Below are positions 39,181-50,771 of a stretch of 64,000 bases of DNA, in pieces. Every line of letters starts with the position of its first letter. Position 1 is the stretch's first letter. The translations under genes and the position numbers were made by a program. The DNA is from an uncultured Mycobacteriaceae bacterium (GTDB lineage: Bacteria > Actinomycetota > Actinomycetes > Mycobacteriales > Mycobacteriaceae). The notes below the pieces were generated by a model, which was not told the DNA's origin, ran no database searches, and saw only the letters and a program-made list of their open reading frames with translations. The stretch is taken from positions 62,001 to 126,000 of the forward strand of contig CADEGF010000009.1 of assembly GCA_902826815.1 (NCBI GenBank), given 5' to 3'.

Positions 39181-40713
39181 CTACGTTCCCGTGAGCTTGG
39201 CGCCGAACCAGCGCGCCAGCGCTGTTCGCAGTGCCGAGGCGTGGCGGTCGTCGAATGTGTCTGCGGCCCACGCGACATAGCCGTCGGGGCGGATGAGCAA
39301 CGCAGCGGGCCCGTCGGTCACCGTGCCCGTCACCAAGTCCACCCGATCGGCCCACGCGGCCGCGGCCGCCGACGCTTTCCCACCGGTCGCGTCGAGCAGC
39401 ACCGGGCGCGCGTCGTGCAGCAGCTCGACGACGCGGCGGCCGTCGTCGAGGACGAGGTCGGGCACCATCCGACCGGAGAGCCGATGGTCGTCGCCGACGT
39501 CGTAGCGGACGTCGGAGCCTGCGAGCAGACCCGCCATGTGCTTCGCGACCTCGCGTTGGGACACCAACTCGCCGAAAAGCGAACGCAGCGCCTCGACTTC
39601 GGGTCCGGGCGCGCACAGCGCCAGTTGCGCCTGCGAATGCATCATCACCCGCTCACCCACCGGGTAGCGCTCGGACTCGTAGGTGTCGAGCAGGCCGTTG
39701 GGCGCCTTCCCGGTCACCGTGGCCGCGAGCTTCCAGCCGAGGTTGACGGCGTCCTGCATGCCGAGGTTCAGCCCTGGACCGCCCATCGGCGAGTGCACGT
39801 GTGCGGCATCCCCCACCAGTAGCACCCGACCGACGCGGTAATGCTCGGCCTGCCGCGAGTTCGTCGTGTCGAGCTTGCGCAGTGCGTGCGGGCCCGGACC
39901 TTTCGGCGGCCCCAGCGGTACGTCGACGCCGATGATGCGGCGGATGCTCTCGCGCAGCTCGTCGAGCGTCAACGGCCGGTCTGCTCCGCCGAAGGTCTGG
40001 CCGTATTCGATCGTGCCGACCATCGGCCGGTCGGGTTCGATCGGAAACGCGATGATGGTGCCGTTGGCAAACCTGTTGTGGCCGAACGGCAGTAGACCGA
40101 AGCCCGGGATGTCGTAGCCGCGGCCGGGCACCAGAAGCTTCTCGGGAAGAGATACGTGGGCGATCCGGCTCACGATCGGCGACGTGTGGCCGGGAAAGCC
40201 GATGCCAACACTCTTGCGCACGGTGCTGCGACCACCGTCGGCCCCGACCAGATAGCCGGCGTCCAGCCGATACGCGCGGCCAGAGGTCGCCACCGTCAGC
40301 GCGACGCCCTGCTCCCCCGGCCTCAACGCGGTCAGCTCGTGGCCCCACCGGATGTCGACGCCGAGATCGCGGGCCCGCTTCTCCAGCAGGCGGACCACCC
40401 GCGGCTGCTGTATCAGCAGCGAGTACAGCGGGTTGTCGTCGATGCCGAGGAAGTCGAGCGCCATGCCCGCGAACATCCAGCCGTAGGCGGGCCGCGGCGG
40501 ACCTTCTTCACCGCCGAACGCGTGATAGAGGCCACGCATGTCGAGCTGTCGGATGACTTGTCCGACAAGGCCGTTGGCCTTGGGTTCGTCGCTCGGGCCA
40601 GGCAGCTTGTCCAGGACAACCGGCCGGACACCGGCCAGCGCCAGCTCGCACGCGAGCAGCAGCCCGTTGGGCCCGGCGCCGGAGATGACGATGTCAGCGG
40701 CTTCAACGGTCAT
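39181..40713 (-). CDS. FAD-dependent aromatic-type monooxygenase (class A flavoprotein hydroxylase)
   Basis: A 510-residue flavoprotein. It has the FAD-binding GAGPNG (12-17), the DG motif GADGGRSTVRKSVGI, and the GD motif VLLVGDAAHVHSPMGGPGLN, all typical of PHBH-like hydroxylases such as rifampicin and tetracenomycin monooxygenases. A thioredoxin-like C-terminal domain follows after about residue 400. It would hydroxylate an aromatic or polyketide-like compound with NAD(P)H and oxygen. The start overlaps the TetR stop by four bases (ATGA), so it is the second gene of a self-regulated pair. Role in detoxification or catabolism is undecided. Confidence 0.87.
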   Translation of the reverse strand: MTVEAADIVISGAGPNGLLLACELALAGVRPVVLDKLPGPSDEPKANGLVGQVIRQLDMRGLYHAFGGEEGPPRPAYGWMFAGMALDFLGIDDNPLYSLLIQQPRVVRLLEKRARDLGVDIRWGHELTALRPGEQGVALTVATSGRAYRLDAGYLVGADGGRSTVRKSVGIGFPGHTSPIVSRIAHVSLPEKLLVPGRGYDIPGFGLLPFGHNRFANGTIIAFPIEPDRPMVGTIEYGQTFGGADRPLTLDELRESIRRIIGVDVPLGPPKGPGPHALRKLDTTNSRQAEHYRVGRVLLVGDAAHVHSPMGGPGLNLGMQDAVNLGWKLAATVTGKAPNGLLDTYESERYPVGERVMMHSQAQLALCAPGPEVEALRSLFGELVSQREVAKHMAGLLAGSDVRYDVGDDHRLSGRMVPDLVLDDGRRVVELLHDARPVLLDATGGKASAAAAAWADRVDLVTGTVTDGPAALLIRPDGYVAWAADTFDDRHASALRTALARWFGAKLTGT

Positions 40714-41339
40714 TGCTTACCTCTCTTGGCGGCGGGTTCCGGCAGCCCTGCTGCGACTTCGGCGAAGGCGGCGCGGATCAGATCGGTGATGGCGACGGGT
40801 GGCTCCGCCCGCACGTATGTCTCCGTCGCCGCGTCGCCGACGGCACGAACAACGGCGGCCACGAGCCGCGGGTAGATGTCTCGCTCCGGGTCGGTGCCCG
40901 TCCGCTCGGCGACGACGTCGAGCCATTCATCGAACAGCTCCTTGTTCGCGGCATCGCGGATCTCGGGTCTCATCAAAAGCTTCCGGACTTCGGCCAGCTC
41001 CGTGCGGGTCGGGATCTTGGTCTCCTCGCCGGTGACCTCACGGAAGTCCTCTTCGAGCGGAGCGACGACGGACTCGGTGATCGACGTCCACAGCGGTTCG
41101 TCGGCGGGCCGGTCCCGCAGCACACTGATGCTGCGCCGCAGGCGTTCGGTCTGGCGGTAGGCCAGCGCCTCGTACTTGCCGGTGAAGTAGTTGTTGAACG
41201 TGCGCAGCGATACGCCCGCAAGGTCGGCGATCGCCTCGCGAGTGACCGACTCGAGGCCGCCATCGAAGGCCAGCTTCAACGCGGCGTCGCTGAGCGCGCG
41301 TCGGGTGTCGAGCTTCTTTCGCTCCCGAAGTCCGGTCAT
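40710..41339 (-). CDS. TetR family regulator of the monooxygenase operon
   Basis: A 209-residue TetR protein with the helix-turn-helix region ESVTREAIADLAGVSLRTFN followed by NYFTGKYEALAY (about 31-62). ATG 41339 is supported by TATGGT six bases upstream on the minus strand, a leaderless arrangement. It is co-transcribed with the monooxygenase, with coupled translation. AT-rich repeated sequences just upstream (41368-41421) are the likely operator. Confidence 0.87.
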   Translation of the reverse strand: MTGLRERKKLDTRRALSDAALKLAFDGGLESVTREAIADLAGVSLRTFNNYFTGKYEALAYRQTERLRRSISVLRDRPADEPLWTSITESVVAPLEEDFREVTGEETKIPTRTELAEVRKLLMRPEIRDAANKELFDEWLDVVAERTGTDPERDIYPRLVAAVVRAVGDAATETYVRAEPPVAITDLIRAAFAEVAAGLPEPAAKRGKQ

Positions 41340-41345
41340 AGGGCC

Positions 41346-41421
41346 ACCATACCGAAACATGCACAGCGGGCAAATTTTCCTATCAGGCAAATTGGCTAAA
41401 TTGTTCGATCTGGTCGAAATG
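41346..41421. promoter_or_regulatory. TetR-monooxygenase promoter and AT-rich operator-like repeats
   Basis: TATGGT (41351-41346, minus strand) is a -10 box six bases from ATG 41339. Upstream, in an unusually AT-rich stretch, GGCAAATT occurs twice (41369-41376 and 41386-41393) and GGCTAAA twice (41394-41400 and about 41422). CAAATTGGCTAAATTG (41388-41403) is an imperfect palindrome. These are likely repressor half-sites. Confidence 0.45.
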
Positions 41422-41517
41422 GCTAAACGAGGCCATGGCATCCCTGACCTTCCGCAACAGCGACGGCGATTTGCGAACGTCTCGACTTCACATTCGAAAC
41501 CACTTGGCGGCTCGACG

Positions 41518-41730
41518 ATGTCGCGACTTCTCGCCGAGGCGGCGAGCCACGGTATCGAGGTTCGCATCACCTACGTCGGGATGTCCAGCCCGGAGGCGCA
41601 CATCGCGCGGGTCGCGCAGCCGAAGCCGGTCCTGCACCTGGCCCATGGCCAGATCGTCGGGCCGTCCGACCTGTCCGCGACGCCGCAGTGGGCCAAGCCG
41701 ATCGTCGCCGCCGTTTGGAAGATGGCCTAG
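41518..41730 (+). CDS. Small hypothetical protein
   Basis: A 70-residue protein from ATG 41518 (MSRLLAEAASHGIEVRITYV...AKPIVAAVWKMA). I do not recognise the family. Coding is supported by the clean amino acid composition and by the stop sharing CTAG with the convergent transaldolase-like gene. An in-frame ATG at 41419 would give 103 residues, but the extra part is Arg/Gln-rich, lies in the AT-rich operator stretch and looks non-coding. No membrane segment or signal is seen. Confidence 0.5.
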   Translation: MSRLLAEAASHGIEVRITYVGMSSPEAHIARVAQPKPVLHLAHGQIVGPSDLSATPQWAKPIVAAVWKMA

Positions 41731-43064
41731 TCGGCTCGGTGCTGCCCGTTTCGGCTGACCACCGGCGCTGCAACAGCTTTGAGGAACCGCTGCTGGTAGG
41801 AGATGACATGCGGGCTACTCGACCACCTCGCGAGATGGCGAGGATCCGTCGTGATCAGCACGCGGTTGTGCAACTCGAGGAACTCCGGTTGCTCGAGCAT
41901 GGCCATGATCCCGGGAAACATCGCCGCACCGTCCATCGAGCAGATGATGAGCCTGCTGGCGTCCAGGTTGGAGCCCTGTAGCCACCGCAGAGATGCCCGC
42001 GCGCTATCCAAACCGTCGCCGCCTCCTGCGGCACTCGCCGCCTCGATCTGCTTGCCGATGGTGAGCGTCTCCAGCAGGTCCAACGTCTCCTCATGGCGGC
42101 CGAGATAGTGGTTCGCCACGAGATGCCGACGAAGCTCGGCCACGAACCACGTGTCGTCAGTCGCGGCGTAGCCCGCGATCAAACCTTCGATCCGGCGCAC
42201 GAAGTTCATCCGGTGTCGCAGAAAGGCATTGATGAAGTACGGCCTGGTCTGCAACGCCAATGCGGTCTGATACGGCTCGAACATCAGCGTGAAGTTCACC
42301 CGGTGACCCAGCTCGGTCAGCTTGAGCGCCAACGAATGTCCGCGCAGCAGATCGGCGGGTGATCCGTCGTAGAAGCGATGGTCGAGCAGGCCGTCGCCGG
42401 TAAGCAACTGCGTTGCCTCCGCGGGCGCGATCGCCCCGGTGTGCGGAACCTTTACCACCAGCCGGTACTTGCTGAGGATCTCCTCGTACATCTGTATCTC
42501 GTCCAGGATGCGGGCGAAGTCCTGCTCGTAGGGGTCTCGCAGTTCGACCGACACGTCGCAGCCTGAACCCACTACATCTGCGATCTCGCGGAGCACGTCC
42601 TCCAGCGATCCGAATTGGCCACCGATATTCGCCTCGGGATTGTTCAGAAACAGGTCGTACACGATGCCCGGATTGCAGGTGACGTTGGCGATCACATCGC
42701 GGCACTCCCGGATCTCGAACGGGTTGGCCGAATCCGCCGAGAACAACACGCCGGTAGGCCGCGGCGCGCCGCCACGGTCGCAGCCGATGTCGCGAACCAG
42801 GTCGAAGACAATCCGCCCGCGATCCTGGCGCTCAACGCGGAACCCGGCGGGCGTGAACGCGCAGGCGGGGGCGAAGAGATCCATCACTTCGCGGAATCGC
42901 GCGGTGACGTCCACCTCGGCGTCGGAGTCCACGAGCGACAGGGTCCTCCAGTCGATCGCGCGCACGTACTTGATCGCGTCGTCGCGCACACGAAGGCGAC
43001 TCTCGACGATCACATCTCCGCCGTCCTGGCCGCAGTACGGCGCCGTCACCTGCGCCGCATTCAC
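41727..43064 (-). CDS. Divergent transaldolase-superfamily protein
   Basis: A 445-residue protein, longer than usual transaldolases. The central part aligns by motif. FSADSANPFEIRECRDVI resembles the DTAN...IRE strand, NVTCNPGIVYD the TTNPSL motif, DVSVEL the next strand, VVKVPHTG the Schiff-base lysine strand (VIKIPxT), and VNFTLMFEPYQTAL the VNVTLIFS region. The usual SPFVGR phosphate loop is not recognisable. It is probably a Schiff-base aldolase or transaldolase with altered substrate. Start GTG 43064 overlaps the kinase stop (GTGA). It is the last gene of the seven-gene operon. Confidence 0.68.
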   Translation of the reverse strand: MNAAQVTAPYCGQDGGDVIVESRLRVRDDAIKYVRAIDWRTLSLVDSDAEVDVTARFREVMDLFAPACAFTPAGFRVERQDRGRIVFDLVRDIGCDRGGAPRPTGVLFSADSANPFEIRECRDVIANVTCNPGIVYDLFLNNPEANIGGQFGSLEDVLREIADVVGSGCDVSVELRDPYEQDFARILDEIQMYEEILSKYRLVVKVPHTGAIAPAEATQLLTGDGLLDHRFYDGSPADLLRGHSLALKLTELGHRVNFTLMFEPYQTALALQTRPYFINAFLRHRMNFVRRIEGLIAGYAATDDTWFVAELRRHLVANHYLGRHEETLDLLETLTIGKQIEAASAAGGGDGLDSARASLRWLQGSNLDASRLIICSMDGAAMFPGIMAMLEQPEFLELHNRVLITTDPRHLARWSSSPHVISYQQRFLKAVAAPVVSRNGQHRAD

Positions 43065-44038
43065 GATTTTCCTCTCGCCGCGTCGACGACCCGCATGCTC
43101 GATTCGAACCGCGGATCGTCTGCGATCACCGAAAGCCTTGCCAAGCACTCGTTTGCGTAGCCCACATGGTCGAAGTCGATGAAGTTGACCACGCTGATGT
43201 TGGCCGACCACAGTCCTTCCCGAAGCCGCGCGGTGAAGCGGTACATGAAGGTGACCGCCTCGACAAACTCGTACGATTCAGTCTGACGATAGCCCTCGAC
43301 GAACGCCTGCTCCTCCTGCGCATCGAGGTTCCACTTCTCGACGAAATCGCCGCAGTCGTAATACCTGTCGCCCAGCCCGGCATACTCCCAGTCGATGAAG
43401 TAGACGCGCGAACCGTCGGTCAGCACATTGCCGACTGACAGATCGGCGTGCAGAAGACACGTCAGATACTCACCCCTGGCGCGCTGGCAGCGCCGGTTCG
43501 CCCGCACCGCCCAGTCGAACTTCGAGGCTAGTTCCGGTGCGGCGCTGGTGGCCTTGCCGTATAGCCATTCGACTCCGACGAACGGATCGCTGATCCAGCT
43601 CGGAAGATCGGCCCCTGTGGTGCGGGTGTGCAGAAGATCCAGTGCATCGGCAGCGAGGCGCGCGGTACGCACCCGCTCGGCGGTGGTCGAGGGCTGAGCG
43701 CATTCAACATATTCGCTGATGATCGCCTTCGGCTGATCTCGATGCCACGCAACAAGGTTCGGGCCGAGACCGAGCTCGTCGACGACGGTCATGGATCTCG
43801 CGTGGGTGTCCCGGTTGATGCCGATACGAGCGGCAGCGTCGTCGGACAGCAGCAACTGAACGGCGTACTGCCTCGGGCCACCGGCGCCCGCTTCGACGGT
43901 GACCTTCCAGTTGCGGTTGGTCATCCCGCCGTCCAGGGGAGCCGCATCCCACCGCGCACCGGGCCACTGCCACTCCACGACGGCGGTGAGGTCCTGCTCC
44001 CCGGCGGTCGACTGCGTCTTCTCAACCTGATCGGTCAC
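43061..44038 (-). CDS. APH/choline-ethanolamine-kinase-like phosphotransferase
   Basis: A 325-residue kinase of the aminoglycoside phosphotransferase fold. The catalytic loop is LLHADLSVGNVL (His197, Asp199, Asn204). The metal-binding segment YFIDWEYAGLGDRYYDCGDF (Asp216) has the IDWEYAG wording typical of LicA-type choline and ethanolamine kinases. It should phosphorylate a hydroxyl on a small alcohol or amino alcohol. ATG 44038 overlaps the phosphatase-like gene stop by four bases. A EutH-family transporter nearby supports an amino alcohol substrate (inference). Confidence 0.8.
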   Translation of the reverse strand: MTDQVEKTQSTAGEQDLTAVVEWQWPGARWDAAPLDGGMTNRNWKVTVEAGAGGPRQYAVQLLLSDDAAARIGINRDTHARSMTVVDELGLGPNLVAWHRDQPKAIISEYVECAQPSTTAERVRTARLAADALDLLHTRTTGADLPSWISDPFVGVEWLYGKATSAAPELASKFDWAVRANRRCQRARGEYLTCLLHADLSVGNVLTDGSRVYFIDWEYAGLGDRYYDCGDFVEKWNLDAQEEQAFVEGYRQTESYEFVEAVTFMYRFTARLREGLWSANISVVNFIDFDHVGYANECLARLSVIADDPRFESSMRVVDAARGKS

Positions 44039-44826
44039 TCTCCGACCTCCTGTCCGACACGGCTCGATAACAGCAACTCCCGAACATGTTCCAGTTCAAC
44101 CAGATTAGTGATCGGAAGGTGAGATCTGTTGGTTTTCACCGTCAGTGGGGGTCCGCCGGCCTTCCCAAGGGAGTCGACGACGATGCCCGCGTCCGACAGG
44201 TCCTCGTCGCCGGTGTACGCGCTCGATGTGGCGATCACCGGCAGACCCGCCGTTCGCGCTGCCCGCACACCGATCTCGGAGTCCTCGACCACCACCGCAT
44301 CGAACGGCGACACGTCGATACCGCCGAGCGCATGCAGGTAGATGTCCGGCGCCGGTTTCTTGCGTGTCACGTCGTCGCCCGCGAAGACCGAAAAGGCGCT
44401 CGCGAGTTCGGCGCCCATGACGTGGTCGAGAACAGCGCGGACAGACTGGTGCGCCGATGTCGACGCGACAGCGAGCAGCCAACCGTCCTGGGCCGCCTCG
44501 TCTGCCAGTCTTCTGACCCCTGGCCGTGCCGGCAGCCGCCCGTCCGCCACCAGGCTGACGAACACCTCCGTCTTGCGCTTATGCCATGAGGCGATCAGCG
44601 AGTCCACGTCTGTGTCGCCGATGCCGTGGTGTTGTCGAAATTCCGGCGTCAGCAGCGCCCGTAGCCGCTCCTTGCCACCCGCCGTACGGAGCGCATCGGC
44701 GTAACCCTCGACGGTCCAAGCGAAGTCGATGCCGTACTCGACGAACACCGTGTTGAACGCCACCCGGTGACCGTCACGTTCTGTGTCGGCGAGAACACCG
44801 TCGCAGTCGAAGATGAGCGCGTTCAC
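44035..44826 (-). CDS. HAD-superfamily phosphatase, CbbY-like
   Basis: A 263-residue HAD hydrolase of the CbbY/beta-phosphoglucomutase-like group. The nucleophile motif is IFDCDGVLADTERDGH (Asp7, Asp9). ASTSAHQSVRAVL is motif II, RKKPAPDIYL gives motif III Lys, and VVEDSEIGV is motif IV. The cap region GGKERLRALL resembles CbbY, which dephosphorylates xylulose 1,5-bisphosphate. It probably acts on a sugar or polyol phosphate in the operon's pathway, perhaps removing an off-path product. It is coupled to both neighbours by ATGA overlaps. Confidence 0.85.
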   Translation of the reverse strand: MNALIFDCDGVLADTERDGHRVAFNTVFVEYGIDFAWTVEGYADALRTAGGKERLRALLTPEFRQHHGIGDTDVDSLIASWHKRKTEVFVSLVADGRLPARPGVRRLADEAAQDGWLLAVASTSAHQSVRAVLDHVMGAELASAFSVFAGDDVTRKKPAPDIYLHALGGIDVSPFDAVVVEDSEIGVRAARTAGLPVIATSSAYTGDEDLSDAGIVVDSLGKAGGPPLTVKTNRSHLPITNLVELEHVRELLLSSRVGQEVGE

Positions 44827-45677
44827 CGAGGGCTTCCTGCACCGGCGAACAGTTGGATATGACTACGTACGCAATCCGCAACCCGCCCGCGCACATGCGC
44901 GAGCAACGCCAGAGGCTCCGCTGAGTCGGAGTGGTCGCCGAGGTACTCGCGGTGGCTGCTGAGGAACGTTCGCTTGAGCGCTGTCGAGATGTTGACCTTC
45001 GCACATCCCGCGGTGATCAATTCGTGGAACTGAGCGGTGGTCAGACCGGATCCCCCGTGAAGCGCCATCGGCACCTCGGTGCGTGCGAACAGTCGTCGTA
45101 CCCGTTCGACGTCGAGTTTCGGCGCGGCCTTGTACAACCCGTGCGCGTTTCCGATCGCCGGCGCGAAGCAGTCCACCTTCGTCGTCTCCATGAAGTCGAC
45201 GATCACATCGTCGGGATACACCGTCGGAGCGGCGTCGCTACCGACACCGTCCTCGACGCCCTGGATACCCTCCACCTCACCCTCGACGTGAACGCCGTTC
45301 GCGTGCGCTTCCACGACCACAGCCGACGTTTGGCGAGTGGCTTCCTCGAGCGGAAGATGCGACGCGTCAAAGAGCACCGAGTTCCAGCCATTGGCAATAC
45401 ATTCCGATGCCACCGCGGGGTCCGGACAGTGGTCGAGGTGCAATGACACGGGAATCGTCGCGTCGCTTGCGGTCCTCGCGAACATCTGCGACAACTCCTT
45501 GGCGCCGATCGCCTTCACGGTCTTGACCGATGTCTGGATGATGATCGGCGCCCGCTCCTCCTCTGCCGTCTCGATCGCGGTGCGCAGGGTCAGGTCGTCG
45601 AAGACGTTCAACGCCAACACGCCATAGCCGCCTTCGATGGCGGGCGCGAGTAGCTCCGGTAACGGTTGGATACTCAT
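44823..45677 (-). CDS. Class II (zinc) ketose-bisphosphate aldolase family protein
   Basis: A 284-residue enzyme of the FbaA/GatY/KbaY family. Active-site residues are in place: Asp82 and zinc ligand His83 in LHLDHCPD, the Glu in VEGEVEGIQG, zinc ligands His179 in GNAHGLY and His207 in LHGGSG, with KVNISTALKR near the end. It should split or join a ketose phosphate with DHAP or a similar ketone. ATG 45677 is chosen because it overlaps the small gene's stop (ATGA); longer reading lacks homology. This is not the housekeeping aldolase by context. Confidence 0.86.
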   Translation of the reverse strand: MSIQPLPELLAPAIEGGYGVLALNVFDDLTLRTAIETAEEERAPIIIQTSVKTVKAIGAKELSQMFARTASDATIPVSLHLDHCPDPAVASECIANGWNSVLFDASHLPLEEATRQTSAVVVEAHANGVHVEGEVEGIQGVEDGVGSDAAPTVYPDDVIVDFMETTKVDCFAPAIGNAHGLYKAAPKLDVERVRRLFARTEVPMALHGGSGLTTAQFHELITAGCAKVNISTALKRTFLSSHREYLGDHSDSAEPLALLAHVRGRVADCVRSHIQLFAGAGSPR

Positions 45678-45904
45678 CGACCCGCCCCAGCCTTGGGCGC
45701 CGACCATCGCCCCGCACCGAAGGCCGCGGCGAGCGCGAGCCCGGCCGTCCCGGCTGCGGCGAGTACGAGAGGTACGTCGGTCTTCTCGAAAGTGACCTCG
45801 GATCGCCACGCGCCAAGCGAGGCGCCGATGACGAGCCTGCCGTCACGGATCTGGACGCCGTGGGCCGACACGCGGAACCTTCCCACGGGTGAAAGAACTT
45901 CCAC
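45674..45904 (-). CDS. Small single-span membrane protein of unknown function
   Basis: A 76-residue protein. Residues 1-40 are a short beta-rich soluble stretch (EVLSPVGRFRVSAHGVQIRD). Residues about 45-66 form one hydrophobic segment (VPLVLAAAGTAGLALAAAFG), followed by a short basic tail. I do not recognise it. It sits between the FAD oxidoreductase (26-base gap) and the aldolase (ATGA overlap). In GlpABC-like systems a third small subunit anchors two FAD dehydrogenases to the membrane, so an anchor role is conceivable (inference only). Confidence 0.7.
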   Translation of the reverse strand: MEVLSPVGRFRVSAHGVQIRDGRLVIGASLGAWRSEVTFEKTDVPLVLAAAGTAGLALAAAFGAGRWSAPKAGAGR

Positions 45905-45930
45905 TCAACTCTCCAATTGTCGGTGTTGTG

Positions 45931-46716
45931 TCAGCGGATAGCGGACACGACCGCACGCGCGGTCGCCTCCGCGATCTGCACCGCTTCCTCGTCTGACCGG
46001 GGGTCCCGTTCGCCGAAGCAGTCGTGAACGGAATCGCTCGGGTACAAAGCGCCTTCGATGTTGCGCATCGGAACCCGCCCTGACGCCAAGATGACGGCGT
46101 CCGTCGTTACTTCCTGTGCCCCGCGGTACGTCTCGATGACCACCGAATGCACCCGAGGGAACCCGTTGACTCGAACCACTCGAGCGTCGTCGAATGCGGT
46201 CACGCGGGGCCAGCTGCCGTTTCGCGGCCCATCGGTCACGGACGTCACCTGGCGAGCGCCCTTGCGCAACAACGAGTTGCACAGATGATGCGCCAGCTCG
46301 CCGCCACCGACGACGACCGGGTTGCGGCCGAGCAGCAACCCCGAATCGAGGAAGTGCACCGCAGCAGAACCCGGTGTGACCCCCGCACCGCGGTCGCCAC
46401 CGATGCCGAGCTCGGCCCGCGTTTGCGGACGCGTGCCGGTGGCAAGCACCAGAGCTTTCACCGGCACCGCAGACGCTCCATCGATACCGAGGGTGTGCAC
46501 CACGCCGTCCACGTGAGAAACGACCAGTGTGCCGAGCATGAGCTTCACGCCCGCGCGGCGCGCGGCCCGCTCCAGTGAGCGCGCGTCGCGTTCGGGTTCC
46601 TGGCCACCGACCTGTGGAAGCCGTTCCACCACAGTCACTTCGAATCCGCGCTCGGCGAGCATGCGCGCGACGTGCAGCCCGCAGCGCCCCGATCCGGCGA
46701 CGACGACGTCAGTCAT
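45931..46716 (-). CDS. FAD/NAD-binding oxidoreductase subunit (GlpB/TrxB-like)
   Basis: A 261-residue flavoprotein. It has GSGRCG (8-13) for the FAD ADP part, LVLATGTRPQTRAELGIGGD in the middle, and a second dinucleotide motif VVVGGGELAHHL. No redox-active Cys-x2-Cys pair is seen, so it is not a thioredoxin reductase. Together with the larger FAD/BFD protein encoded upstream it resembles a two-subunit dehydrogenase (GlpA-GlpB or hydrogen-cyanide-synthase/octopine dehydrogenase type). ATG 46716 overlaps the preceding gene by eight bases. Confidence 0.8.
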   Translation of the reverse strand: MTDVVVAGSGRCGLHVARMLAERGFEVTVVERLPQVGGQEPERDARSLERAARRAGVKLMLGTLVVSHVDGVVHTLGIDGASAVPVKALVLATGTRPQTRAELGIGGDRGAGVTPGSAAVHFLDSGLLLGRNPVVVGGGELAHHLCNSLLRKGARQVTSVTDGPRNGSWPRVTAFDDARVVRVNGFPRVHSVVIETYRGAQEVTTDAVILASGRVPMRNIEGALYPSDSVHDCFGERDPRSDEEAVQIAEATARAVVSAIR

Positions 46717-48157
46717 CGGTGGCTCCGACCCCGAGTTGCGAGCCCGGCTCGTGGTAGGGAATGTCCCAGGGATTGTCGCCGGTGTACATCGAGGTGATGA
46801 ACGACACCCCGGACAGACAGGCTGAGCCCTGACACCGTCCCCAGGTTGCGTGTGTTCGCCTGGCGACCCCGATGATGCTCGTTGCGGGGAGGGGCTGCGA
46901 CAGCGCCTGATGGATGTCCTGGGCGGTGACCTTCTCACACGCGCAGATCACTGTCCTACCAAGCGGATCCGACGCAGCGTCTGCGCAATTCAGCTCACTC
47001 CACAGCGGCTTGCGGTAGTCGAGGACGTGAACCGGATCGGCCTTCGCGGTCGAATTCAGGCCGCGCTCGACGAGTAGGTCGCGGACGAACTGCGCGATCC
47101 CCGGAGACGCCGAAACCCCGGTCGACCGAATGCCCGCGACGTGCACGACATTTCCCGCCGACTCGGACCATCCGATCCGGTACGTCGGGTCGGAGTTCGA
47201 TCGAACACCCGCGAACCGCTTGATGACGAACTGCATGTCGATCGACGGCATCATTTGCGTGCAGCGCCTCAGCACCTCGTTCAGGTTGTCCTCGTCGGTG
47301 CTGCGATCGAGCTTGTCCGTCAGGTCCTCGGCCGTCGGCCCGAGAAGCACGGAACCGTGCGCGGTGGGAAGCACCATCGGACCGTGCCCGAGTGGTCCGG
47401 GCACACCGGTCAGGATCCCTGGCACGCGGGCCCCGAACTCGCGGTCCAGCAGCGCCCATTGGCCACGCCGTGGCGTTACCGCGAAATCCTCGCCGCCAAG
47501 GATCCGCGAGACTTCGTCGGCGCCGAGGCCCGCGGCATTGACGATGAATCGCGGGCGGAACGTGTGCTGCGGCGTTGACACCTGGGAGACAACGCCTTCG
47601 ACGCTCTTCGCAGACACGACCGGCTGCGAGAAATAGAAGTCGACACCGTTGAGGCAAGCCTGTTCTCCGTAGGCGACGGTGAGCCGCACGGAGTCGATGA
47701 CCGCTTCCTCGGGGACATGGACCGCCATTTTGGTCGACGGTGACGCATGCGGTGCGTGCTCGAAAATGTCGTCACCGGAGAGGAGCAACGCCTCGTTGCC
47801 GTTCTCCTGCGAACGCTCCGCCCAGGCGGGAAGCGCTGCGACCTCATCGTCGGTGAACGCGAGCATCGTGATGCCGACCCTGCGCCACTTGACGCCGAGG
47901 TCTGCCGTCAGCTTGGGCCACTGCGGATACGACGAAGAAACCAGCCGCCCCTCGAGACTGCCGGGTGCCAGCGACCAACCGCAGTTGGTGACGCCGCTGT
48001 TGGCCTTGGACGTCTCCTCGCCCACGTCGTGCCAGCGCTCGACGACGGCGACGCTGACGTCGAGAAGCGACAGCTCGCGGGCCACCGCGGTGCCGACGAC
48101 TCCGGCGCCGATGACGAGGACGTCAACCGGCACCGGTCGAGACGATGGCTGGTTCAA
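46709..48157 (-). CDS. DAO-family FAD dehydrogenase with C-terminal BFD [2Fe-2S] domain (GlpA-like)
   Basis: A 482-residue protein. Residues 12-about 375 are an FAD-dependent DAO/glycerol-3-phosphate dehydrogenase-type domain (VLVIGAGVVGTAVARELS). The last about 85 residues are a BFD-like domain with cysteines in VICACEKVT and WGRCQGSACLSG, which would bind a [2Fe-2S] cluster. It likely oxidises a phosphorylated alcohol or an amine and passes electrons through the cluster to the partner flavoprotein or the membrane. It is the first gene of the seven-gene operon; a 154-base gap to the LysR gene should hold the promoter. Confidence 0.84.
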   Translation of the reverse strand: MNQPSSRPVPVDVLVIGAGVVGTAVARELSLLDVSVAVVERWHDVGEETSKANSGVTNCGWSLAPGSLEGRLVSSSYPQWPKLTADLGVKWRRVGITMLAFTDDEVAALPAWAERSQENGNEALLLSGDDIFEHAPHASPSTKMAVHVPEEAVIDSVRLTVAYGEQACLNGVDFYFSQPVVSAKSVEGVVSQVSTPQHTFRPRFIVNAAGLGADEVSRILGGEDFAVTPRRGQWALLDREFGARVPGILTGVPGPLGHGPMVLPTAHGSVLLGPTAEDLTDKLDRSTDEDNLNEVLRRCTQMMPSIDMQFVIKRFAGVRSNSDPTYRIGWSESAGNVVHVAGIRSTGVSASPGIAQFVRDLLVERGLNSTAKADPVHVLDYRKPLWSELNCADAASDPLGRTVICACEKVTAQDIHQALSQPLPATSIIGVARRTHATWGRCQGSACLSGVSFITSMYTGDNPWDIPYHEPGSQLGVGATDD

Positions 48158-48311
48158 TTACTTCCCTTTTGGCTATGTTTTGGGCCGTGGCGCGATGACC
48201 GAAGAGTAGGTGTGGCCGATACCGCAACGGCACCTCGTATGGGCACATCGCATATCAGCGCCGCGAACGATCGGGATGTCCGATAGGTTTCGCGGATCAT
48301 CCAGGCGAACG

Positions 48312-49253
48312 TCAGGACAGGGCGGTCACCGCCGTGGCGCCCGGGCCGTTGACGGCGTCGGCGAGCAGCACTTTGAAGTAGTGGTCGGCCGGCGCGGTCA
48401 CCACGCCGAGCAGGGCGATGGCCCGGACGTCACGCTGTCCCCAGTCGACGCCAGGAACGCGGAATTCGACGATTTCGCCCCGGCGCCGCTCCTCTGCGAT
48501 GGAGTGGATGGAGACGAAACCGATACCGGCTTGTTCGCGGGCAGCGCGTTTGACCGCGTCGACCGACCCCAGCTCCCAGACCGACTTCCAGCCAGGCGCT
48601 CCGCCGTGCATCTCGATCGCCTGGGTGCGCGTGCTCGATCCGCGCTCCTGCACCAGCAGGGTCTGACCGACGAGCTGGTCGAGCGTTACGCATCCGGTGG
48701 AGCTGATCTCCAGTCGTCCAGGACTGCAGATGCCGATCACTTCGTCACTTCCGATGGTTTCCACCCGAAGCCCTGGCGCAGTGATCTCGCTGCATGTGAT
48801 CGCCAACGTGACCCGGCCCTCCAGCAGCCAATCGATGACCGCGTCGGTCGGACCTACGGACAGGCGCACGTCGACGTCGGGGCAGCGGTTGACGAACTCG
48901 GCGACGACGCGCGGCAGGATGAAGGTCCCCGGCACCGACGATGCGGCGATGTTGAGGGTGCCCGCCCGCAAGCCGGCGCGAGCCGCGAGCGCCGACTGGC
49001 CAGCGGAGAGATTGGACAACGCTTGTGATGCCACCCTCGCAAGGATCCGTCCGCTCGGGGTCAGCACCAGGGATCGCCCGTTGCGCTCGGCGATCGGCTC
49101 TCCGGCCGCTGCACTCAGCAGACGCAGGTGCTCGCTGGCCGACGGTTGGCTGATGCCGACGGCCTTGGCGGCCATCGACAGGCTCGTGGCCCGCTCGAGT
49201 TCGACGAGCAACCGCATGCGGGTGGAATCCCACACGTCCATGAGCGACGGCAT
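48312..49253 (-). CDS. LysR family transcriptional regulator
   Basis: A 313-residue LysR protein. The winged helix-turn-helix spans about 10-65 (RATSLSMAAKAVGISQPSAS). The effector domain begins near 90 (GTLNIAASSVPGTFILPRVV). It lies directly upstream of the catabolic operon on the same strand and diverges from the EutH-family transporter at 49467, so it can control both. ATG 49253 follows an AGGGAG ribosome site; ATG 49241 is possible. Confidence 0.87.
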   Translation of the reverse strand: MPSLMDVWDSTRMRLLVELERATSLSMAAKAVGISQPSASEHLRLLSAAAGEPIAERNGRSLVLTPSGRILARVASQALSNLSAGQSALAARAGLRAGTLNIAASSVPGTFILPRVVAEFVNRCPDVDVRLSVGPTDAVIDWLLEGRVTLAITCSEITAPGLRVETIGSDEVIGICSPGRLEISSTGCVTLDQLVGQTLLVQERGSSTRTQAIEMHGGAPGWKSVWELGSVDAVKRAAREQAGIGFVSIHSIAEERRRGEIVEFRVPGVDWGQRDVRAIALLGVVTAPADHYFKVLLADAVNGPGATAVTALS

Positions 49254-49350
49254 GCGCTGATCTCCCTATCTATCCCCGGGGGCACACCCCGTCGTACCAG
49301 AAGCGAGACCCAGCGTAGGGCCCACCCATAGGCAAATCAGAACTGTCGTG

Positions 49351-49373
49351 CGGGATCCATCCGGGATCGGGAT
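49351..49373. repeat. Three CGGGAT direct repeats upstream of the EutH-family gene
   Basis: CGGGAT occurs at 49351, 49362 and 49368 within the 213-base gap between the LysR gene and the transporter. Spacings are 11 and 6 bases. This could be part of an activator site; a LysR T-N11-A dyad was not clearly seen. Confidence 0.3.
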
Positions 49374-49466
49374 ACGCCACCCCGAGTTCGGGCCATCGGT
49401 ATCGGTCGCGCCTAATCTTCAACCCACTCGGCCCGCGGGCCACCTGGCGGAAGGAACGACTGGGCG

Positions 49467-50771
49467 ATGGCCAACCTCGGCAATGCCGTCATCTACCTCA
49501 TGATGACATTCGTTTTGATCGGAGCGGTGTTCCTGGTGTTCCGCGGAGACCGCGGTATCGGGCACGAGTTCAAGGAGGGCCTGTATGCCCTCGGACCGCT
49601 CTTCGTTCCAGTCGGCGGCGTCATGGCGGGCCTCCCGTATCTGGCGTGGTTCGTGGAGAACGTCATCGGCCGGGTGTACGCGCTGTTCGGCGCCGACCCG
49701 GCCATGGCCGCAACGACATTCATCGCCAGCGACATGGGCGGCTACCAACTGGCGCTGGCGACGGCCGACTCGCCCGGGGCGTGGATCACCGCCGCGGTGA
49801 CCGGGTTCATGGCCGGAGCCACCATCTCGTTCACGATCCCCGTCGGCCTGGCCATCCTGAATCGCAAGGATCACCAGTACTTCGCGCTGGGCATCATGAG
49901 CGGCATCCTCACCGTCCCGATCGGTGTCATCGTGACGATGGCGATCCTGTTGTTCACCGACTCCCCGGTGCGCGGCACAGCGGTCACCGACGGCCCGTCG
50001 GAGGTCGCACTCGATGGCTTCGGCATGGGTGACGTCCTGCTGAACTTGCTTCCAGTGATCATCGTCTCGGTCGCGATCGCGGTTGGCCTCTACTTCGTGA
50101 CGAGGGCGATGGTGACGGCCTTCATCTGGTTCGGCCGAACCCTCAACGGCGCGATTTATCTCGTCCTCGCGATCGCGATCGTCGAGCACGTCACCGGCTT
50201 CTTCAGCTCGCATCTGAGTTGGTGGAACTTCCAGCCCATCATCGCCACCGCCGACGACCAGATGCGACCACTGGAGATCGCAGGCAACGTCGCCATCGTG
50301 TTGGCCGGCGCCTTCCCCCTGGTTTACGTGATCCGCACGTATCTGAAGACGCCGCTCGGGGCGGTCGGCAAATGGTTCGGGATCAGCCCCGACGGCACCG
50401 CAGGCCTGCTGGCCGCCGCGGCGAACATGATCGCTGCCTTCCACCTCGTCCAGTTCATGAAGGCGAAGGAGAAGGTGCTCGTCGTGGCGTTCGGCACCAC
50501 GTCGGCCTTCTTGGTGGGCGACCACCTCGCCTTCACCGCCAACTTCCAGCCGAACCTGATCGGTCCGCTCATGATCGGCAAGGTGGTCGCGGGCGTCACG
50601 GCGATGCTGATCGCGGCGTGGATCGCCGTACCTACCGCACAACGCATTGAGCGGGAACGCGAACTGGCAGAGGTGGCAGCGGCAGAAGCTGAACTCGCCG
50701 AGTCTGATTCGAACGACGAACACGTCGTCGAGTCCGCGGGCGTCGCTCGACGCGGCGAACCCGACGACTGA
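49467..50771 (+). CDS. eutH: EutH-family ethanolamine/amino-alcohol transporter
   Basis: A 434-residue membrane protein with about eleven spans. The EutH hallmark region is clear: EFKEGLYALGPLFVPVGGVM, then ADPAMAATTFIASDMGGYQL, TISFTIPVGLAIL, and DHQYFALGIMSGILTVPIGV, and later VGDHLAFTANFQPNLIGPLM. The C-terminal 45 residues form an acidic/charged tail. In enterobacteria EutH brings ethanolamine into the cell. Here no ethanolamine ammonia-lyase or microcompartment genes are visible. The neighbours are instead a choline/ethanolamine-type kinase, FAD dehydrogenases and aldolases, so the cargo may be a different amino alcohol or polyol (inference). GGAAGGA precedes ATG 49467. Confidence 0.85.
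   Translation: MANLGNAVIYLMMTFVLIGAVFLVFRGDRGIGHEFKEGLYALGPLFVPVGGVMAGLPYLAWFVENVIGRVYALFGADPAMAATTFIASDMGGYQLALATADSPGAWITAAVTGFMAGATISFTIPVGLAILNRKDHQYFALGIMSGILTVPIGVIVTMAILLFTDSPVRGTAVTDGPSEVALDGFGMGDVLLNLLPVIIVSVAIAVGLYFVTRAMVTAFIWFGRTLNGAIYLVLAIAIVEHVTGFFSSHLSWWNFQPIIATADDQMRPLEIAGNVAIVLAGAFPLVYVIRTYLKTPLGAVGKWFGISPDGTAGLLAAAANMIAAFHLVQFMKAKEKVLVVAFGTTSAFLVGDHLAFTANFQPNLIGPLMIGKVVAGVTAMLIAAWIAVPTAQRIERERELAEVAAAEAELAESDSNDEHVVESAGVARRGEPDD

Follow-up and report, generated by a model that had tools for sequence, protein, structure and literature searches.

We analysed a stretch of 64,000 nucleotides from an uncultured Mycobacteriaceae bacterium (assembly GCA_902826815.1, contig CADEGF010000009.1, positions 62,001 to 126,000), called here the window, which belongs to a genome of 6.87 Mb (G000). 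Between window positions 41727 and 50771 lie nine genes, all open and in frame: seven on the minus strand (41727-48157), a LysR gene and a divergent EutH gene. A preliminary description, made from the sequence alone, had listed this content at these positions, and both were confirmed by the open reading frames (ORFs) and by Pfam searches. The genes are the following.

41727-43064, minus: divergent transaldolase of the TAL_FSA family (hereafter TAL), 445 amino acids (aa), GTG start; Pfam TAL_FSA 7.5e-08, 32.5 bits (cut-off 27)
43061-44038, minus: small-alcohol kinase of the APH type, choline/ethanolamine-kinase-like, 325 aa; Pfam APH 1.6e-15, Choline_kinase 9.6e-09
44035-44826, minus: CbbY-type HAD phosphatase, 263 aa; Pfam HAD 2.3e-21, PDB match CbbY
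44823-45677, minus: class II (zinc) ketose-bisphosphate aldolase, 284 aa; Pfam F_bP_aldolase 1.5e-74
45674-45904, minus: small protein with one hydrophobic stretch, 76 aa; conserved in loci L005, L006 and L020
45931-46716, minus: second FAD/NAD(P)-binding oxidoreductase subunit (hereafter FAD2), 261 aa; Pyr_redox_2 5.5e-16
46709-48157, minus: DAO flavoprotein with a C-terminal BFD [2Fe-2S] domain, GlpA/GlpO-like, 482 aa; Pfam DAO 4.9e-60, Fer2_BFD 1.3e-06
48312-49253, minus: LysR-type regulator; Pfam LysR substrate domain 3.3e-32, adjoins the operon in L005, L006 and L020
49467-50771, plus: EutH-family transporter, 434 aa; Pfam EutH 2.8e-108, 362.7 bits (cut-off 25)

Four junctions of the minus-strand genes (small protein/aldolase, aldolase/HAD, HAD/kinase and kinase/TAL) are 4-nucleotide stop/start overlaps (ATGA or GTGA), a pattern typical of translational coupling; the DAO and FAD2 genes overlap by 8 nucleotides, and a gap of 26 nucleotides separates FAD2 from the small protein gene. 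The longer starts given by the ORF finder for the aldolase, FAD2 and TAL were judged not to be the true ones. The shorter starts make the operon tighter, and that of TAL was placed by its 4-nucleotide overlap with the kinase stop. Inspected by eye, the 76-aa protein is a possible membrane anchor for the flavoprotein pair, and related small proteins (also recognised by eye), flanked by FAD2 and EutH, occupy the corresponding position of loci L023, L070 and L075.

All nine proteins were found together in three other Mycobacterium genomes (G033, G036 and G573, loci L005, L006 and L020; G000 is of the same genus as G036), as had been asked of a genome-neighbourhood comparison when the cluster was first noticed. 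Protein identity to the window is 49-74%, from 51% (kinase and EutH) to 74% (DAO) in G033 and G036, and from 49% to 72% in G573. The order in these three genomes is LysR-DAO-FAD2-small protein-aldolase-HAD-EutH-kinase-TAL, all co-directional; the window order matches it except for EutH, which the relatives place between HAD and the kinase. EutH is therefore part of the unit, although it is divergent in the window, and the grouping of nine genes is not due to chance. TAL itself is rare. It is present in three of 61 relatives (own genome counted) and in five of 248 genomes of the genus, and the 394 genomes of the class gave only the own genome and two short matches of 19.9 bits; a search of plasmids gave no match. 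A contig scan with the TAL alignment returned one named match, M. austroafricanum DSM 44191, by two peptide patterns only, which says little on spread.

Genomes G033 and G036 share an uninterrupted block of 10,004 bp, 100% identical, that holds the whole operon. Identity runs on beyond the block for 0.8 kb leftward and at least 4 kb rightward, and the identical tract totals about 14.8 kb (L006:3092-17920), broken by two insertions in G033; the stretch further left is 95% identical. The idea that the operon lies between unrelated flanks in these two genomes was dropped, because identity extends on both sides of the block and is merely interrupted by insertions. Their EutB regions are only 79% identical; the operon tract was therefore probably exchanged recently between species, to judge from the two levels of identity, and mixing of the two assemblies may be another source of the identical tract. 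Transposase-like ORFs were recognised by eye in the flanks of the tract.

EutB was searched in six genomes: it is absent from G000 and present in G033, G036, G573, G543 and G344. The absence of classical ethanolamine use, previously proposed for this locus, thus holds for EutB in G000 and not for the three other carriers of the operon, which means that a lack of EutB does not characterise the operon. Among the operon proteins searched, Pfam detected neither an eut enzyme nor a shell gene, EutC and the shell proteins not having been searched genome-wide.

Comparison of loci divides the operon into two parts. The first, module 1 (EutH, APH-type kinase, GlpA-like flavoprotein, FAD2 and small protein), is predicted to import, phosphorylate and oxidise a small substrate, an order of import, phosphorylation and FAD-linked oxidation that the preliminary description had given and that we judge right. 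Module 2 consists of the class II aldolase, the CbbY-type HAD and the divergent transaldolase. All six loci with a full-length TAL (G000, G033, G036, G573, G543 and G706, the last from another class of the phylum) keep the aldolase and HAD in the same gene run, with an aldolase-TAL separation of at most three genes. In G543 and G706, module 2 is accompanied by DhaL and DhaK, which pass the equivalog cut-offs for dihydroxyacetone (DHA) kinase, and EutH, the kinase and the flavoproteins are missing. TAL is present in G794 as fragments at contig ends, and one such contig carries the aldolase, HAD, an E1-like protein and DhaK/DhaL. Cryobacterium plasmid pA10BH1 (L030) carries aldolase-HAD-DhaL-DhaK together with an aquaporin, TpiA, RpiB and a split transketolase, with no TAL near.

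In G543 (L021:2830-15169), the aldolase-HAD-DhaL-DhaK-TAL run lies beside an amino-acid-permease-like transporter, a P450 with its reductase and an S-(hydroxymethyl)mycothiol dehydrogenase (TIGR03451, 669 bits, cut-off 513); the cluster may be a demethylation pathway that produces formaldehyde and brings its own module to assimilate it. A Shinella plasmid (L031:1-22638) carries an aldolase and a CbbY-type HAD with an FGGY kinase, a GlpD-like protein and another divergent transaldolase, and also an acetoin-dehydrogenase-like E1/E2/E3 set, a phosphoglycolate phosphatase and TpiA, a catabolic cluster for which we have no explanation. The Shinella 'transaldolase family protein' was rejected as kin of the window TAL, as BLASTP and profile comparison gave no significant similarity.

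Module 1 was likewise found with no aldolase, HAD or TAL nearby, as DeoR-FGGY kinase-DAO-FAD2-small protein-EutH in Mycobacterium G344, G531 and G634. In P. aeruginosa (L025), EutH is found with an annotated glycerol kinase, DAO and FAD2. PA1487 is named among the enzymes that could phosphorylate glycerol, of which GlpK is the only one characterised according to that account (PMC8151288). The kinase-DAO-FAD2 set is combined with an amino acid permease in Streptomyces, Roseateles and Agrobacterium (where an annotated fba follows the permease), with a TRAP transporter in Tistrella, Paracoccus and Chelatococcus (where an annotated eutB is near), and with an ABC transporter, of the peptide type by our reading, in Mesorhizobium. 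For this comparison, 15 records were taken from 40 listed of 223; P. aeruginosa was also reached via its EutH match.

Among solved structures, the phosphatase of module 2 best matched Arabidopsis CbbYA with 186 bits and R. sphaeroides CbbY with 146 bits, compared with 52 bits for the best HAD that is not a CbbY. In a 16-row tree, eight aldolase-linked HADs and six CbbY rows were set apart from two outgroup rows with a support of 100/100, in an analysis where bootstrap had not settled, the outgroup was only two rows and inner branching was mostly unresolved. The cap motif GGKER is present in all eight aldolase-linked HADs, in five of the six CbbY rows and in neither outgroup, and we infer that it marks specificity. 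By these comparisons, the closest relative of the window HAD is CbbY, a xylulose-1,5-bisphosphate (XuBP) 1-phosphatase, and the same selective activity is predicted for it. Plant CbbY enzymes are reported to remove the 1-phosphate of XuBP with a catalytic efficiency about 1000- to 5000-fold above their efficiency on ribulose-1,5-bisphosphate (PMC10212915), and XuBP phosphatase to act poorly on fructose-1,6-bisphosphate (FBP) (PMC9833046).

The window HAD is thus like the Calvin-cycle CbbY of Arabidopsis and R. sphaeroides in sequence (44% identity to both over the parts compared, with the GGKER and H..KT motifs), but unlike it in lying in a heterotrophic catabolic operon, three of whose four carriers lack a large chain of ribulose-1,5-bisphosphate carboxylase/oxygenase (RuBisCO). 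G000 was the only one of the six genomes searched to have a large chain. It is encoded at L079:6912-8273, on a 9.6-kb contig (C111), and is 70% identical to form I of Allomeiothermus. A role of the HAD in RuBisCO repair is unlikely, because the large chain occurs in this genome only, of the six searched, and on another contig.

The aldolase keeps the motifs HLDH, AHG and LHGG and a C-terminal Arg in an alignment with annotated fba and gatY products; we take these motifs to be the zinc ligands and catalytic Asp of class II FBP aldolase. The aldolases of the window, L006, L020 and G706 retain the Arg aligned with that of FBP aldolase, presumably the residue that binds the phosphate of the aldehyde. 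Those of G543, Cryobacterium, G794 and Shinella have lost it, and in E. coli GatY a Lys stands at this position. For the window group, an unphosphorylated aldehyde was therefore discarded as substrate. The close match of the HAD to true CbbY suggests that the aldolase may run as a condensation and not as a cleavage alone. In the simplest combined reading, the aldolase would add dihydroxyacetone phosphate (DHAP) to a phosphorylated aldehyde, and the phosphatase would then take the C1 phosphate; with a C2 aldehyde phosphate the product would be a pentulose-1,5-bisphosphate. The preliminary description, with its CbbY-like phosphatase and final aldol cleavage, would have to be changed in this respect.

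TAL is 54-66% identical to its three relatives. VVKVPH, TCNPG, SVEL and NFTLMF, which we take to hold the Schiff-base Lys of transaldolases and FSA enzymes and its neighbours, are invariant in the four sequences. A search of PDB by sequence gave no match at E 0.01. A structure model (mean pLDDT 58.5) was compared with known folds: four of the seven best matches (ranks 1, 4, 5 and 6) are entries named transaldolase, and ranks 2, 3 and 7 carry a title on L-glyceraldehyde from C1/C2 aldehydes and were taken as FSA-type, all with a TM-score of at most 0.31 (query length) and an rmsd above 9. TAL is a remote member of the transaldolase family, to which these fold matches lend weak support, and we take it to be active in sugar-phosphate rearrangement.

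In module 1, the best PDB match of the DAO flavoprotein is the M. pneumoniae glycerol-3-phosphate (G3P) oxidase 4x9m (5.6e-38). His51 of GlpO has been proposed to abstract the C2-hydroxyl hydrogen (PMC10726252). The column of this His, located by counting in the alignment, is Asn in the window and in L005, L006 and L020, so that the catalytic His expected of a G3P oxidase is missing. The column was surveyed in 22 loci (a second P. aeruginosa record, L039, was left out of the count, and the kinase type of L043 and L048 was read by eye from the N-terminus). None of the five loci with an APH-type kinase has His: the fifth, L040, has Thr, and since L005 and L006 are the same in sequence, this set amounts to four distinct sequences from two lineages. 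Of 14 loci with an FGGY kinase of the glycerol-kinase type, 11 have His and three have Cys (Mycobacterium L023, L070 and L075). His is present in all three loci from Clostridia and Fusobacteria, one of which is near an annotated G3P-responsive antiterminator. GlpO Arg320 and Ser348 have an Arg and a Ser as their aligned equivalents in the window protein, and the Lys258 position is a His; the numbering and active-site role of these three GlpO residues are as we presume them. Loss of the alcohol-oxidising His suggests oxidation on the C-N side, and the correlation with kinase type fits a phosphate-bearing substrate whose amine, and not a hydroxyl, would be oxidised. FAD-linked oxidation to a keto-phosphate had been suggested at first; the FAD-linked oxidation stands, and oxidation of a hydroxyl to a keto group is disfavoured by the loss of His.

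The kinase matched choline kinase 4r77 in a PDB profile search (1.6e-06), and its Pfam Choline_kinase match (35.4 bits) is above the cut-off of 29. The motifs LLHADLSVGN and IDWEYAG are invariant in the alignment, in agreement with choline/ethanolamine kinases; they fit HxD..N and (I/L)D(W/F)E, which we take to be the motifs of APH-fold kinases.

EutH was found above cut-off in three genomes of the class (394 searched) and in 10 of the genus (246 searched). The latter hold 11 loci: four have the present operon, three the FGGY version, one is in G607 (L074), and three, which by eye adjoin SDR-like genes, are without any query protein. At L074:5743-15358, EutH is grouped with an APH kinase, a DAO-GcvT protein (dimethylglycine-dehydrogenase-like), a class III aminotransferase and an acyl-CoA synthetase. 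The best NCBIfam match of this aminotransferase is PRK06148, covering the C-terminal part of the model only (445 bits, cut-off 1128). Since proteins of the PRK06148 type are, as we assume, kinase/phospho-lyase fusions, the L074 set may serve the use of N-methylated ethanolamines through a kinase and a phospho-lyase. In Nitratireductor, EutH is also found with an APH kinase and a DAO-GcvT protein, and both sets point to amino alcohols.

The interpretation takes protein families, catalytic motifs, linkage and the identical tract as they are read from the DNA, and adds to them a substrate, the chemistry of each step and the direction of the aldolase. EutH would import an amino alcohol, and the APH-type kinase would phosphorylate its hydroxyl. 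The GlpABC-like complex (DAO/2Fe-2S flavoprotein, FAD2 and small membrane protein) would oxidise the C-N bond of the phosphorylated amine, with transfer of electrons to the respiratory chain, release of ammonia and a carbonyl phosphate left as product. In a specific version, ethanolamine would give glycolaldehyde phosphate; the class II aldolase would condense it with DHAP to XuBP, the CbbY-type phosphatase would take off the C1 phosphate to yield xylulose-5-phosphate, and the transaldolase would help the pentose phosphate pathway to regenerate triose phosphate. This scheme needs no isomerase, and the operon contains none. EutH, the choline/ethanolamine-type kinase, the loss of His and the CbbY match speak for ethanolamine, which is also favoured by the fact that glycolaldehyde phosphate would need a module like module 2 to enter central metabolism. 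We consider it fairly probable that the operon is mobile and serves the catabolism of a small amino alcohol resembling ethanolamine. The explanation as a whole is tentative, and the conversion of ethanolamine or a near analogue through glycolaldehyde phosphate and XuBP to xylulose-5-phosphate is put forward with somewhat less confidence still.

Several observations weigh against this pathway. Presence of EutB in G033, G036 and G573 would give ethanolamine two routes there, and the association of module 2 with DhaK/DhaL in G543 and G706 suggests that DHAP, not glycolaldehyde phosphate, is the junction. EutH scores 504 bits with the NCBIfam equivalog NF011668 (cut-off 575), i.e. slightly below equivalog level. 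The XuBP specificity of the aldolase-linked HADs is putative, drawn from their likeness to CbbY. Loss of His was seen in two APH lineages, and the Cys of the three FGGY loci with EutH indicates that it is not tied to APH kinases alone. EutH also adjoins a protein of the D-arabinono-lactone/alditol-oxidase family in G422 and in Paracoccus yeei, which would fit a polyol. Finally, we know of no precedent for the oxidation of phosphoethanolamine to glycolaldehyde phosphate, and a literature search gave none among the matches listed.

Serinol (2-amino-1,3-propanediol), or a similar C3 amino diol, is a close rival to ethanolamine, although taken alone it is an unlikely substrate. Serinol phosphate, formed by the kinase, would be deaminated by the flavoprotein to DHAP, which the aldolase, HAD and transaldolase would channel towards hexose and pentose phosphates (from FBP to fructose-6-phosphate). 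Serinol phosphate is the amino analogue of G3P, and the nearest solved relative of the flavoprotein is a G3P oxidase whose Arg320 and Ser348 have kept equivalents. A bacterial ethanolamine sensor is reported to bind serinol too (PMC7046293), which makes the two compounds look-alikes. With EutB in three of the four carriers, a substrate different from ethanolamine becomes more plausible, and module 2 is found with DHA kinase, a source of DHAP, in G543 and G706 as well as with no TAL or a broken TAL in Cryobacterium and G794. Serinol thus suits the presence of EutB and the DHA-kinase versions, but the need for module 2 is not clear: DHAP should require no dedicated aldolase, phosphatase or transaldolase, and CbbY-type HADs are described as poor on FBP (PMC9833046).

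A polyol, as in the preliminary description, appears still less likely. EutH would import it, the kinase would phosphorylate it and the flavoprotein would act as an alcohol dehydrogenase, yielding a ketose phosphate for cleavage by the aldolase. The FGGY versions of module 1 with EutH (P. aeruginosa L025, Mycobacterium L023, L070 and L075) and the alditol-oxidase neighbours of EutH in G422 and Paracoccus yeei are in line with this, but His is lost in all five APH-kinase loci and the kinase is choline-kinase-like. Erythritol and apiose, named there among the candidate substrates, fit less well because the operon has no sugar isomerase. Very unlikely is a role of module 2 in a dihydroxyacetone (xylulose monophosphate) cycle for formaldehyde, in which the window flavoprotein would generate formaldehyde or DHAP by demethylating an N-methylated amine phosphate: the G543 run with DhaKL beside a P450, reductase and S-(hydroxymethyl)mycothiol dehydrogenase, and the Cryobacterium L030 set with TpiA, RpiB and split transketolase, would suit such a cycle, but the window operon has neither DhaKL nor transketolase and its flavoprotein has no GcvT domain.

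The amino alcohol operon was compared with known systems. It shares with the anaerobic G3P dehydrogenase triads (DAO+BFD, FAD protein, DUF1667) and GlpABC a row of a DAO+BFD protein, a second flavoprotein and a small protein, but the catalytic His is replaced by Asn and the small protein was not matched to DUF1667. Amino alcohol routes by kinase and phospho-lyase exist (Erwinia aminopropanol, ETNPPL). They are similar in that the amino alcohol is phosphorylated first and differ in that the window operon has no pyridoxal phosphate-dependent phospho-lyase, a flavoprotein being thought to act on the phosphorylated compound. The likeness to classical Eut (EutBC, microcompartment) is the EutH transporter, but G000 has no EutB. 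Streptomyces GlnA4 reportedly uses ethanolamine through gamma-glutamylethanolamide, starting with a gamma-glutamylethanolamide synthetase; this is also a non-classical use of ethanolamine by actinobacteria, but no such synthetase is encoded in the operon (the genome was not searched). Known families account for every operon protein except the small one, and amino alcohol routes that begin with a kinase have precedents. The apparent novelty lies in the gene combination, in a G3P-dehydrogenase-like complex that would act on a phosphorylated amine and in CbbY as a putative catabolic enzyme. The absence of a characterised pathway of this composition, stated at the outset for this cluster, agrees with our literature search, which gave no description of such a pathway among the matches listed, subscription papers being mostly outside its scope.

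Outside the operon, window positions 39181-41570 (minus strand) encode an FAD monooxygenase whose best match is to rifampin monooxygenase models (374 bits, cut-off 800). The adjoining TetR gene is weakly MftR-like (62.5 bits, cut-off 224.9).

If the reading is true, the operon would encode an undescribed catabolic pathway in which a flavoprotein acts on a phosphorylated amino alcohol. CbbY would have a role outside the Calvin cycle, reportedly its only setting; a 2022 review states the belief that orthologues of XuBP phosphatase are absent outside photosynthetic organisms (PMC9833046). As Cryobacterium, Shinella and further actinobacteria combine the aldolase-CbbY pair with different entry modules, one answer could cover several clusters. 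Designed photorespiration bypasses join C2 aldehydes to triose phosphate. A natural carbon-conserving cycle of C2 assimilation, with a quinone-linked flavoprotein and with CbbY, an enzyme of RuBisCO repair elsewhere, as the catabolic step to xylulose-5-phosphate, is a rather doubtful extension of our proposal; if real, it would be the natural counterpart of these bypasses, and would offer engineers a natural enzyme set to convert C2 units to pentose phosphates without loss of CO2.

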